The notes under the pieces were generated by a model. It did not search any database, had not been told where the DNA came from, and saw only the letters and a program-made list of their open reading frames with translations. Shown here piece by piece: positions 5,177-10,640 of a stretch of DNA of 10,742 nucleotides; positions within the stretch are counted from its first letter, which is position 1, and every line of letters begins with the position of its first letter. The stretch is from assembly GCA_900540005.1 (NCBI GenBank), contig UQEM01000082.1, positions 1-10,742 of the forward strand, written 5' to 3'. Position numbers and translations under genes: made by a program. Source of the stretch: an uncultured Ruminococcus sp. Its GTDB lineage: Bacteria > Bacillota > Clostridia > Oscillospirales > Ruminococcaceae.

Positions 5177-5200
5177 GCACCGTGAATCAAAATACGGTGC
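5177..5200 (+). promoter_or_regulatory. 5'-leader hairpin of the SGNH-like gene
   Basis: A 7-bp perfect stem GCACCGT/ACGGTGC with a 10-base loop (5184-5193) lies in the leader between promoter and start codon. No U run follows, so it is not a terminator. It could protect the 5' end or be a regulatory site; nothing in the sequence decides. Confidence 0.45.
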
Positions 5201-5234
5201 TCATTAATCATTAAATATAGAGTTTGGAGATAAT

Positions 5235-6104
5235 ATGGCTAAAACAAAAAATGTTCAGAGAATTTCAAATAAAAAACGCGGCAGACCGAAAGTTCGCTTT
5301 AATATTGGCGGATTTATCCTGATATTCGTACTTTCGTTCGCAGCCTGCTTTGGATTTTATATGGCGGCTGCAAATCTCAATGACAATTTCTTCAATGACG
5401 AATTCGGCGGAGTGTCGGTCGAAGGAACAACGGAAGCAACCACGTCAGCCGAGCAGACATCTCAGAATGCCGCAGGAGACGAGAATACTGATAATACATC
5501 CGGTACGGATTCTGCTCCTGCTATGCTGAATCCCGTTCCGCAATCCGCAGCAGTTGACGCATCATATTTTGATAATTGCTGTCTTGTTACCGATTCGACT
5601 TTGCTCGGCATGGGCAGCGTAACGGATTTCAAGGACGTTATCGGAAGTGACAGCCTCAGCGCGTCCGGCTGCAACACAGTCAAGGTGGAGACCAATTACG
5701 GTACAGTTACCGTATATGAAACTTTGCAGATAAAAAAGCCGATGAATGTTTACTTCATGCTGGGCAGCGATATCGGAACTGTAACAGTTGACGAAATGAT
5801 CTCTAATTACACTACGCTTGTGAGCAATCTTCATGCGTACAAGCCTGATATGAATATCTATGTCATGCAGTTGCCGCCAGTCGCAGCCGATACCACCACA
5901 GTGACCAACGAGCTTATCAACGAGTACAACACAAAGCTTTTGAATATGGCAAATACAGTCGGAGTCAACTGCATTGATACCAATACGGCGCTCAAGTCGG
6001 TAGAGGGAACGCTTTCTGCTGAATACTGGTCTGCCGATACGGGGACATTTACTGACGAAGCCTATAAAACTATCGCGGGATATATACTCACACATACTGT
6101 ATGA
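5235..6104 (+). CDS. Membrane-anchored SGNH/GDSL-hydrolase-like protein, probably degenerate active site
   Basis: 289 residues. A very basic N-terminus (KNVQRISNKKRGRPKVR) is followed by one membrane segment (~25-46), an extracellular Thr/Ser/Glu-rich linker (~60-105) and a C-terminal domain (~112-289) resembling the SGNH-hydrolase fold. The SGNH blocks are seen only in altered form: LVTDST (Asp120-Ser121) stands where GDS is usual, MLGSDIG (175-181) where GxND is usual, and ADTGTFTDEAY (267-277) where D-x-x-H-x-(S/T)-x-x-G/A-Y is usual. In that last block Asp268 is kept but the His position is Thr271. Active family members are cell-wall esterases or deacetylases. Here binding or scaffolding is as likely as catalysis. 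GGAG lies 5 bases before the ATG. It is a single-gene unit between its promoter and a terminator 2 bases after the stop. The fold assignment is by motif pattern and moderate. Confidence 0.75.
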   Translation: MAKTKNVQRISNKKRGRPKVRFNIGGFILIFVLSFAACFGFYMAAANLNDNFFNDEFGGVSVEGTTEATTSAEQTSQNAAGDENTDNTSGTDSAPAMLNPVPQSAAVDASYFDNCCLVTDSTLLGMGSVTDFKDVIGSDSLSASGCNTVKVETNYGTVTVYETLQIKKPMNVYFMLGSDIGTVTVDEMISNYTTLVSNLHAYKPDMNIYVMQLPPVAADTTTVTNELINEYNTKLLNMANTVGVNCIDTNTALKSVEGTLSAEYWSADTGTFTDEAYKTIAGYILTHTV

Positions 6105-9220: not shown

Positions 9221-9375
9221 CATTTACATAAAAAATCCGCCTTGCCGTTAATATAGCGAATAAAACCCGCACGAAGCAGGTGGGTAAACGCCCGATTGCT
9301 TCACGCTCCCTTCATCTGCAAGCAGGAGGTCTGCAATCCACAGCCGGAGCCGAATTCCCTAATTAGAAGTGTTGG

Positions 9376-9403
9376 ATTATAAAAACCATATAAACACGAA
9401 CAA
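9376..9403 (-). promoter_or_regulatory. Inner promoter of the 6S-like RNA
   Basis: On the minus strand, TTGTTC (9398-9403), 16-base spacer, perfect TATAAT (9376-9381). The predicted start is near 9370, directly before the terminal stem of the RNA. Confidence 0.55.
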
Positions 9404-9428
9404 GGCAGAATATTTATTTGTTGATTAT

Positions 9429-9498: not shown

Positions 9499-9816
9499 TT
9501 ATTCCTCGTCAAAGTCGTCGTAATCATCCGAATCTATTGCGTCCTGAAGTCTCTGGAGGAAAAAGCCTGCGACCTTTTCGTATTCATCATCGTCATCAAT
9601 CGATGCAAGGAACTCTTCTTCACCGTCGAATGAAGACTTGAGGATAACCATTTCGCAGTCGGAATTGAGAAAATCATCATCTTCGATAGCCGGGATCATA
9701 GCAAAGTATTCTTCACCGTCAATTTCAGCAGCATCAATAAGCTCAAACTGCTTTTTGTTTCCGTCCTCATCTATAAGTTCAAAAAGTTCAGGGGTGTACT
9801 CGTTCATTTCTGACAT
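9499..9816 (-). CDS. DUF1292 family small acidic protein
   Basis: 105 residues, extremely rich in Asp/Glu, with a C-terminal tail of almost only Asp, Glu, Ser and Tyr (~95-105). The opening pattern (LFELIDEDGNKKQFELIDAAEIDGEEYFAMIPA, described here at residues 11-43) is characteristic of DUF1292, a common Firmicute family of unknown function. In other genomes it is often encoded near alaS, an IreB-family gene or the RuvX gene; here none of these is adjacent. The start is ATG 9816 with GGAG 6 bases upstream; a TTG 12 bases earlier overlaps that ribosome site and is unlikely. Only a weak AT stem with a T run (just after the stop) could end transcription, so readthrough into the 6S-like RNA is possible. 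No function is assigned. Confidence 0.88.
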   Translation of the reverse strand: MSEMNEYTPELFELIDEDGNKKQFELIDAAEIDGEEYFAMIPAIEDDDFLNSDCEMVILKSSFDGEEEFLASIDDDDEYEKVAGFFLQRLQDAIDSDDYDDFDEE

Positions 9817-9996: not shown

Positions 9997-10025
9997 TTGA
10001 CTTTCACGAGAAGGTGTGGTAATAT
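9997..10025 (+). promoter_or_regulatory. Promoter of the large noncoding RNA
   Basis: TTGACT (9997-10002), 17-base spacer ending in TGTGG, TAATAT (10020-10025). TGG before the -10 makes it an extended -10 promoter. The predicted start is near 10032. Confidence 0.78.
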
Positions 10026-10108
10026 ATAATCAACAAAAGGGAACAGAATCCCGGAGCTGAATTTACTTGGACTGAGCATTAAGCTCAATGTAAATGATTA
10101 TACGCGGA

Positions 10109-10130
10109 AAGGTGAGTGAGTCCGATGGAA
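10109..10130 (+). repeat. Motif copy 1 (SD-like repeat in large RNA)
   Basis: AAGGTGAGTGAGTCCGATGG, followed by AA: copy 1 of the motif AAGGTGA-(T/G)-N-CCAATGGA-N-AATTT, with four extra bases before TCC. An ATG follows and opens a 16-residue reading frame (10125-10175). Part of it can be sequestered by the pseudoknot partner at 10067-10073. Confidence 0.55.
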
Positions 10131-10363
10131 GGAACTACAGAACAGCAGCGTGAAGCCGGCGGGCTTGCTGAGTGATCAAATTAAAAAAAGAGGGAATATA
10201 AGCAGTAGCTTGTTCCAATGATTGAAGTTTCAAAAATTTAAGGTTTGATTATATAAGCGGACGTTTAGCTGTATGGAAGCGGCTTCATGACTTACTAAAT
10301 TTAGATACAGGATTATCTGAAATTTCGACGTTAAGTCTTTCGATAAATCGATAAAATTTAGTT

Positions 10364-10386
10364 AGAGGTTGATTCCAATGAGAAAT
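10364..10386 (+). repeat. Motif copy 2 (SD-like repeat in large RNA)
   Basis: AGAGGTTGATTCCAATGAGA, continuing AAT. It begins just after the closing stem AAATTTAGT (10354-10362). Its ATG (10378) opens only a 6-residue frame. Confidence 0.5.
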
Positions 10387-10450
10387 CATGTTGCATAACA
10401 CGATGATTCTGGTGGGTCTTGAAAGATCCGCAATACATATTACAGTAACT

Positions 10451-10476
10451 AAGGTGATACCAATGGAGAATTTTGC
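10451..10476 (+). repeat. Motif copy 3 (SD-like repeat in large RNA)
   Basis: AAGGTGATACCAATGGAGAA, continuing TTTTGC. This is the copy closest to the consensus and most similar to copy 4. AAGGTGAT is the same ribosome-site sequence used by nrdG. Its ATG (10463) opens a 5-residue frame. Confidence 0.6.
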
Positions 10477-10548
10477 TTGACTTGATTACTTTCCGAAAGA
10501 ATGTGATAATATGAAAGTATTGAGGTACAGATTTATTCTTTAAACCGA

Positions 10549-10575
10549 AAGGGTGAGTCCAAAGGACAATTTAGC
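10549..10575 (+). repeat. Motif copy 4 (SD-like repeat in large RNA)
   Basis: AAGGGTGAGTCCAAAGGACA, continuing ATTTAGC. It has one extra G and AAAGG in place of ATGG, so no start codon. GTCC and GGAC within it form a small hairpin. It sits just before the GAAA-capped stem at 10577-10594. Confidence 0.6.
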
Positions 10576-10611
10576 GAAACGATGAAAGTCGTTTTATACA
10601 ATCGAATATCT

Positions 10612-10640
10612 AAGCCCCGACCAGTAAGTCGGGGCTTTTT
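10612..10640 (+). terminator. Terminator of the large noncoding RNA
   Basis: 10-bp perfect GC-rich stem AAGCCCCGAC/GTCGGGGCTT with a 6-base loop, ending in CTTTTT. A strong plus-strand intrinsic terminator. Confidence 0.95.

Follow-up and report, generated by a model that had tools for sequence, protein, structure and literature searches.

The window, that is the whole stretch of 10,742 nucleotides analysed here, carries on its plus strand a putative RNA gene of about 609 nt which is conserved and structured, apparently single-copy and chromosomal, and which, as judged from the sequence, extends from its own promoter to its own terminator (Table 1). The preliminary description of this DNA had proposed a strong extended -10 promoter and a strong terminator around some 609 bases without a gene of normal size, and all of this was borne out: the TG-extended -10 box is conserved in 44 aligned regions, the terminator stem has double changes in 6 of its 8 consensus pairs in the Ruminococcus clade, and the list of open reading frames (ORFs) of the window holds none of normal size between the two elements. 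The -35 and -10 boxes, together with the bases just 3' of them, are among the best-conserved positions of the 44 regions, and the position of the promoter fits a transcription start near 10032. The predicted start region (10025-10045, ATAATCAA.SAAAGRGA) is about as conserved as the promoter and contains a Shine-Dalgarno (SD)-like AAAGG without a start codon.

Table 1. Features of the RNA gene and of its upstream neighbours, in positions of the window
Feature	Position	Strand	Remarks
6S RNA (RF00013)	9230-9414	-	76.6 bits; just beyond the DUF1292 gene; sole Rfam match in the window
DUF1292 protein (PF06949, YrzB/UPF0473)	9499..9816	-	Pfam E 2.3e-14; divergent neighbour, possible partner
Promoter, -35 box TTGACT	9997-10002	+	17-nt spacer to the -10 box
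Promoter, -10 box TAATAT	10020-10025	+	TG-extended; whole promoter 9997..10025
Putative RNA gene	10032..10640	+	About 609 nt, predicted start to terminator end; no Rfam match
Module 1 and ORF1	10108..10175	+	Extended SD AAAGGTGAGTGAGTCCG; ORF1 10125-10175 (MEGTTEQQREAGGLAE, 16 codons)
Long structured arm (predicted)	10148..10290	+	10148-10158:10280-10290; 10159-10169:10256-10269; 10172-10182:10242-10252
Most conserved core block	10300..10346	+	ATACAGGATTATCTGAAATTTCGACG..AAGTCTTTCGATAAA; predicted stem 10314-10321:10338-10345
Module 2	10364..10398	+	AGAGGTTGATTCCA and minigene with ATG, 10378-10398 (MRNHVA in the window; MRX-stop in most relatives)
Module 3	10452..10480	+	AGGTGATACCA and minigene with ATG, 10463-10480 (MENFA; mostly 2-7 codons in relatives)
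Class-2 micro-ORF MKVLRYRFIL	10500..10543	+	ORF with ATG, 10511-10543; weaker GAATGTGATAAT site upstream
SD module without AUG	10550..10561	+	AGGGTGAGTCCA followed by AAG; 7 nt past the class-2 stop
GAAA-capped hairpin AAACGATGAAAGTCGTTT	10577..10594	+	GAAA 10584-10587; 99% standard pairs
Intrinsic terminator	10612..10637	+	10 pairs, 7 of them G-C, followed by a T run

With regard to the neighbourhood, of the 34 family loci chosen through the promoter, 25 have a divergent DUF1292 gene next to the RNA (the gene is missing in the other nine, one at a contig end), as do 20 of the 28 that remain after dereplication. All 18 clade loci scanned have a 6S RNA nearby, as do 8 of the 20 loci of a mixed sample and 6 of the 20 of a diverse one. 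The downstream gene, viewed in 15 loci, encodes a convergent RarA-type ATPase in some and a codirectional HtrA in others, and otherwise varies; these names presumably hold for the relatives, where they were given from recognised motifs, and the window's own HtrA-type gene is backed by Pfam. Since the downstream gene varies in both identity and orientation, the RNA does not serve as leader to any one gene, and a riboswitch, leader or attenuator acting on the next gene was rejected on the same 15 loci and on the terminator that lies between. No tRNA was found in the window. The RNA gene had no match in the phage and plasmid collections searched, so a plasmid or phage origin was discarded as well. 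Bases 1-126 of the contig translate to ..IRRQRQMCIRDS.., which we take to be a common sequencing-adapter artefact of contig ends and which suggests a metagenome assembly.

Relatives were collected with the neighbouring DUF1292 protein as bait, which yielded 76 loci, mostly named Ruminococcus and many of them R. flavefaciens. The region or a part of it was matched in 43 of these loci (blastn, E up to 0.01), mostly at 68-78% identity in the main segments, so that its conservation exceeds chance. The matches start at the -35 box or shortly upstream, conservation drops past the terminator, and the RNA usually lies divergent from the DUF1292 gene (elsewhere in L003). The clade set comprises 44 sequences, 43 of them with the core block, and no module filter was applied to it. 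A DNA search of 396 family genomes gave matches in 25, some covering just the promoter or a 3' stretch of 47 bases; on reading, these relatives share the promoter and repeatedly show the element AAAGGUGAUUCCNAUG. The promoter pattern TGGTADDATAWAWWCAASRAAAGRGA occurred in 57 of the 396 genomes, compared with 2 for the reversed control pattern, and at 69 places, 11 of which were not fetched (several being BLAST matches already) and 58 of which were examined. Arrays of the ribosome-binding modules described below were present at 34 of the 58; those viewed among the other 24 were mostly ordinary genes, with a few contig ends or weak cases. The diverse set consists of 29 dereplicated RNAs (28 promoter-picked and that of the window; 28,064 nt), whose loci were required to have at least two modules with ORFs of at most 30 codons, a mild bias. 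An order-wide draw of 394 genomes gave five matches to the promoter pattern with at most one mismatch, four in genomes already drawn from the family and a fifth (L197) without modules; this search probes the promoter and not the RNA under another promoter, with which other families could carry it. We read the RNA as a vertically kept chromosomal gene at the level of the family, its apparent occurrence so far being within this family only.

None of 4227 Rfam families lies on the RNA, neither in the window at gathering scores nor for the RNA itself at E up to 10, where chance-level matches far below the cut-offs were obtained and ROOL was absent. The same was found at gathering score in 58 further loci (18 from the clade and two groups of 20), most of which hold the RNA; 6S, T-box, SAM, tRNA and RNase P matches in these loci adjoin the RNA and never lie on it. 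The covariance-model check that had been proposed for this stretch (ROOL, OLE, GOLLD, tmRNA, RNase P and 6S) was part of this search, and none of the models matches the RNA; nor did any model for raiA or for group I or II introns match over it. A group II intron had come under consideration on account of a GUGUG near 10015 and the GAAA hairpin, and no intron model matched at E up to 10. The tmRNA model (RF00023) had no match in the window and exceeded its cut-off at another place in 13 of 15 genomes searched, indicating that the RNA is not a tmRNA replacement.

ROOL, which the preliminary description had put forward as the first class to compare, did not survive this analysis, as RF03087 gave no match at gathering or at E up to 10. 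It was also absent from 11 related genomes in a search that gave no match in any control genome either and that is weak taken alone. Members of ROOL form an RNA-only octameric cage. According to the accessible text of PMC12286853, ROOL env-120 has 659 nt, and ROOL and GOLLD are encoded in phages or prophages, often near tRNA islands. In contrast to ROOL and GOLLD, the present gene lies among ordinary chromosomal genes, with no tRNA in the window and no phage or plasmid match. It resembles ROOL, GOLLD and OLE in length class, in its many stems and GNRA-type loops and in a function that is poorly understood, and differs from all three in having no covariance-model match and in carrying conserved micro-ORFs. 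Since an independent, conserved and structured unit of about 609 nt falls into no Rfam family, a new large RNA class is justified, as had been foreseen for the case that ROOL failed.

The folding energy of the RNA is -164.6 kcal/mol (z -4.40 against 20 shuffles), and without the terminator z is -3.96 against 100 shuffles, no shuffle folding as well in either case; since the reverse strand gave z -3.70, energy alone cannot name the strand. A consensus fold was made from 39 clade sequences with a mean identity of 72%, the most divergent ones (L055, L057, L058, L060 and L061) being dropped. It contains 120 pairs, of which 94% are standard compared with 33-45% for slid partners, and 24 have double changes in at least two sequences compared with 5-10 for slid partners, which supports the presence of stems. 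Only 2 pairs passed a stricter tree-based G-test for covariation; the pair counts against slid partners were therefore used instead, and individual long-range helices, such as one closing the whole molecule, are not proven. Helix 10172-10182:10242-10252 of the long arm is the best supported, with double changes in 9 of its 11 pairs, the other two arm helices having one each; the core stem has none. The GAAA pointed out before does cap a hairpin. The long arm shares its 5' strand with the 3' half of ORF1, and a ribosome on ORF1 would therefore be expected to disturb the arm. By eye, the element GCGGCUCG within ORF1 and the stem is kept in spite of a different reading frame (L167 and L169 compared with the rest).

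The RNA does not appear to be plainly noncoding: it presents a row of strong putative ribosome-landing sites, most of which are joined to a conserved tiny gene of 1 to about 25 codons. Internal repeats had been recognised in the preliminary description, and they are present; what it had missed is their nature, namely ribosome-binding modules followed by conserved micro-ORFs. Each module is an SD extended along the 16S tail, then NCC, then AUG, and the pattern [AG]GG, 4-11 nt, [TGA]CC, N, AUG was found 110 times in sense and never in antisense in the 29 dereplicated RNAs, compared with a mean of 2.7 and a maximum of 8 in 200 shuffles. A UCC spacer sets this RNA apart; [GT]TCCNATG was present at 87 of its 255 SD-led ATGs and at none of the 68 SD-led starts of long ORFs (at least 150 codons) in the same loci, one of which matches the full, looser module. 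Pairing of the module with the 16S tail, whose sequence was assumed, has a predicted mean energy of -14.0 kcal/mol, compared with -10.6 when UCC is replaced, a gain that is partly built in because the module pattern demands CC.

Neighbouring modules are spaced by at least 43 nt, with a mode of 50-55 nt, roughly the room that one initiating ribosome takes up. Six modules stand in a row at a 50-55-nt pitch in L180, and the largest count is nine, in L147. The modules are not predicted to be more open than the rest, their mean unpaired probability being 0.365 vs 0.396 for the background, which gives no support to the idea of modules as open linkers. Clusters of minigene modules (at least two sites with ORFs of at most 7 codons) were sought on both strands of 907 kb from 136 loci; 74 clusters were found in 72 loci, 70 of which had exactly one. 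The 64 loci without a cluster include cases in which the RNA lies outside the fetched stretch, has fewer than two strict matches or is absent. Four-module clusters were seen in L065, L067 and L068 (minus strand, about 5200-5640 in reverse-strand coordinates) adjoining DUF1292 genes only 45% identical to that of the window, which indicates that the RNA may extend beyond the range of the promoter pattern.

Three classes of ORF recur in these RNAs: a first ORF of 13-26 codons (ORF1), start-stop minigenes, and short ORFs of the MKxxR[YF] type (class 2). In the 29 RNAs, the module AUG has a frame-0 stop at most 3 codons away in 67 of 110 cases; the corresponding figures are 17 of 108 for frame +1 and 32 of 108 for frame +2 (with sites treated as independent, Fisher p 4e-12 and 4e-6, respectively). 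Counted per RNA, the frame difference was positive in 23, negative in 5 and tied in 1, and for the remaining AUGs of these RNAs the median distance to the stop is 9 codons. The effect was also evident at 93 clade NCC-N-AUG sites 3' of the core, chosen without an SD requirement, where a stop fell within 2 codons at 58, 2 and 2 sites and within 6 codons at 84, 23 and 22 sites in frames 0, +1 and +2, respectively. The stop itself is kept as its identity swaps among TAA, TAG and TGA. Start, stop and frame of the micro-ORFs are thus under selection, and their evolution suggests that they are translated.

These frame-specific stops and stop swaps, together with a third-position excess in the nine-codon ORFs described below, are conserved codon-level patterns of the kind that the preliminary description had named as evidence against its own reading, and, strictly taken, its term noncoding does not hold; structure and micro-ORFs coexist in the RNA. 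A plain structured noncoding RNA of ROOL-like type, whose AUGs and stops would be incidental to an A/U-rich motif, would agree with the supported stems and the strong folding energy. We consider it highly improbable, since the frame tests weaken it strongly and no Rfam family matches.

ORF1 was found by script in 71 of 78 sequences, with 13-26 codons within a search range of 11-32. It has 16 codons in 37 clade copies, that of the window included (stops TAA 22, TGA 14 and TAG 1), and is frameshifted in L011. It often starts with M[EDA]...E[SQE]Q, and the codons of this motif are synonymous across the family (GAA/GAG, TCA/TCG, CAG/CAA). Single-base codon differences number 269, 914 and 988 at positions 1, 2 and 3, with 796 synonymous and 1375 non-synonymous ones (pair counts, which are non-independent events), a pattern that is no clean coding signal because much of ORF1 is also constrained by the stem. 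In most start-stop minigenes, Met is followed by no more than two codons (MA, MY, MK, ME, MES, MDS). Module 2 has ATG in 43 of 44 clade sequences, exactly 3 codons in 34 of 44 and the form AUG-AGA-NNN-stop in most of the clade, and the stops of the 43 ATG copies are TAG 21, TAA 13 and TGA 9; exceptions are 17-18 codons in three clade members, 6 in the window, and L063, which lacks the AUG. For module 3, an ATG lies at most 6 bases from the aligned place in all 44 sequences (L055 and L061 without the module), and the ORF has at most 7 codons in 40 of them.

As to class 2, 29 ORFs of 7-15 codons were found, often of the form MK..R[YF]...[LN]I. In the clade, ATG is present in 35 of 44 sequences and the ORF has 9-10 codons in 32 of these 35; four of the nine sequences without ATG (L045, L048, L050 and L051) read TTG or GTG, with the ORF otherwise open. 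Their class-2 region is readable in two frames, as a GTG/TTG-started MK.RYT.KI or as an ATG-started ORF of the MMYIEKEVHI type, and because of this overlapping ORF the TTG/GTG starts are no more than suggestive. In a comparison over all pairs of 21 nine-codon copies (two of them unlike class 2), single-base codon differences amount to 173, 97 and 265 at positions 1, 2 and 3 (again non-independent), 158 of the differences being synonymous and 377 non-synonymous. As non-synonymous differences outnumber synonymous ones in both ORF1 and class 2, the constraint on the peptides is loose.

SD sites without AUG are linked to these ORFs. Of 44 such sites, 35 have an ORF of 6-17 codons ending at most 25 nt upstream, vs 22.6% of random positions, with 24 of the 35 at 6-7 nt and five at 13 nt, and 28 of the 44 lie 4-9 nt past a micro-ORF stop, vs 5.5% of random positions; it should be underlined that the pattern for these sites is loose and that at least one of them (L186, position 167) is in fact an AUG site. 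Of the 31 clade sites, 29 have a micro-ORF upstream, which ends at 6-7 nt in 21 cases. Class-2 ORFs of the HDLNI/RDLN type in L165, L180, L193 and L196 are among the five cases at 13 nt, and one of this type with an extra codon ends 9 nt before such a site in L164. In L086 and L194 (same genome, G116), units of a class-2 ORF, an SD without AUG and a GAAA hairpin are repeated three times in tandem, by eye about 140 nt apart. The SD sites without AUG (10550-10570 and relatives) are GGGGUGAGUCCGACAGGUUAC-like and look similar to GGGGUGAAGUCGUAACAAGGUAAC, which we take to be a strand of the 16S decoding site.

Two further readings bear on these arrays. A short motif present in many copies, not all of them with an AUG, and the frequency of DUF1292 as divergent neighbour might speak for a sponge in which SD-like modules titrate a trans-acting factor that recognises ribosome-binding sites; this could be a C-rich sRNA or a protein that binds RNA, for which the DUF1292 protein is a possible candidate. 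Such a sponge would need neither an in-frame stop after each AUG nor class-2 ORFs, and the model of the DUF1292 protein (mean pLDDT 70.8; predicted beta sheet and C-terminal helix) had no informative structural match, the best Foldseek E being 0.66, so that we regard this reading as quite improbable. A sponge of the CsrA type, considered on account of GGA motifs, was rejected since the in-frame stops argue against it. The RNA could also be a polycistronic mRNA, a micropeptide operon whose ORF1 products (E-S/E-Q start) and MKxxR[YF]xxxLNI peptides would act in trans or as signals. The E[SQE]Q-type motif of ORF1, often kept with synonymous codons across the family, points in this direction, as do the maintained length of class 2, its frequent R[YF] core and [LN]I-like end, and its third-position excess. 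However, most modules encode 0-2 freely varying residues past Met, which are hardly specific peptides, the SD sites without AUG that are tied to class-2 stops yield no peptide, non-synonymous differences exceed synonymous ones, and the UCC spacer and the RNA stems are conserved as well. We therefore judge a micropeptide operon to be unlikely, but it is one of the two main rivals to the reading that we prefer.

In its accessible part, PMC8708949 describes minigenes as two- to six-codon ORFs with a strong SD, such as axe-txe mg2, B. subtilis ycbK and the LEE leaders, and reports that strong SDs let ribosomes re-initiate without leaving, that two-codon ORFs favour peptidyl-tRNA drop-off and that an SD-bound ribosome can protect RNA from RNase E. 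The modules show the same features, that is a strong SD, an AUG, a few codons and a stop, kept by selection, and fast re-initiation and peptidyl-tRNA drop-off would thus be expected of them. The minigenes covered there occur singly or in pairs within leaders of real genes, whereas in the present case the body of a terminated RNA is made up of several copies, and no downstream gene belongs to it. The RNA also resembles the leader peptides and uORF attenuators presented in the accessible text of PMC8632094, in which a short conserved ORF over a stem precedes a terminator, but differs from them in that its downstream gene varies and can be convergent, and in having several ORF classes and SD sites without AUG. 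Among the matches listed in a search of titles and abstracts, in which many subscription journals lie outside coverage, no such RNA was present. Single minigenes have been described, and so have leader peptides; for a structured, terminated RNA with a body of arrayed minigenes we found no precedent.

The published behaviour of minigenes (PMC8708949, as far as accessible), combined with an RNA made up of such elements, led us to choose ribosome engagement as the proposed function: the RNA may be a structured molecule built to engage, load and hold ribosomes at many places at once, to which we assign a probability of about 0.4. Each module could pair with nearly the whole 3' tail of 16S rRNA and offer an AUG, and with the stop usually so near, a ribosome that starts there would terminate a few codons on and then stay, re-initiate or be handed on. 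Where ORFs of 9-12 codons end just 5' of an SD without AUG, a terminating ribosome would be caught and its restart blocked, and translation of ORF1 would open the long stem formed by the second half of this ORF. Ribosome occupancy itself would then be the function, in a device that holds or senses ribosomes; the minigene peptides would be by-products, and those of ORF1 and class 2 may act on their own ribosome. Two observations sit less well with ribosome holding: the lack of predicted openness of the modules is a poor fit with constitutive ribosome loading, and the conserved peptide patterns of ORF1 and class 2 suggest that the peptide matters in at least some ORFs.

A strong ribosome-binding site with a minigene may also, according to the accessible part of PMC8708949, act solely by protecting its own RNA, which leads to the other main rival, a structured regulatory RNA under ribosome control in cis. 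The minigenes would here be RNase shields, ORF1 would switch the long stem, and the active part would be the core or the 3' domain. This would agree with the cases described in that source in which strong-SD minigenes protect transcripts in cis, with the overlap of ORF1 and the 5' strand of the main stem, where GCGGCUCG is kept regardless of frame, and with the core block being the most conserved part. Up to nine modules, tandem arrays at 50-55 nt and units of class 2 with an SD without AUG exceed the apparent needs of shielding, however, and we find this rival rather unlikely.

Returning to ribosome engagement, a more specific form of it, which we view as doubtful, is that the RNA is a ribosome-directed counterpart of 6S RNA which mimics many translation starts. 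Ribosomes would be parked or counted through the start-stop minigenes and the start-less SD traps, and the gene sits near that of an RNA which occupies RNA polymerase. The likeness to 6S RNA is that a core machine would be occupied, in the proposed sense only, and that the gene lies in the same cluster; unlike 6S RNA, it is a separate gene with no match to the 6S model, and its proposed target is the ribosome and not RNA polymerase.

Loci of this kind can be overlooked by scans for noncoding RNA that reject a codon signal, and equally by gene callers that impose a minimum length. If ribosome engagement is right, the RNA would be of a kind between mRNA and noncoding RNA, with genes that are mostly too short for proteins and yet have their start and stop kept across a bacterial family. 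It would then offer a natural setting in which to study ribosome trapping, re-initiation at minigenes and SD sites that lack a start, and might be a global regulator of translation in fibre-degrading bacteria of the gut and rumen.
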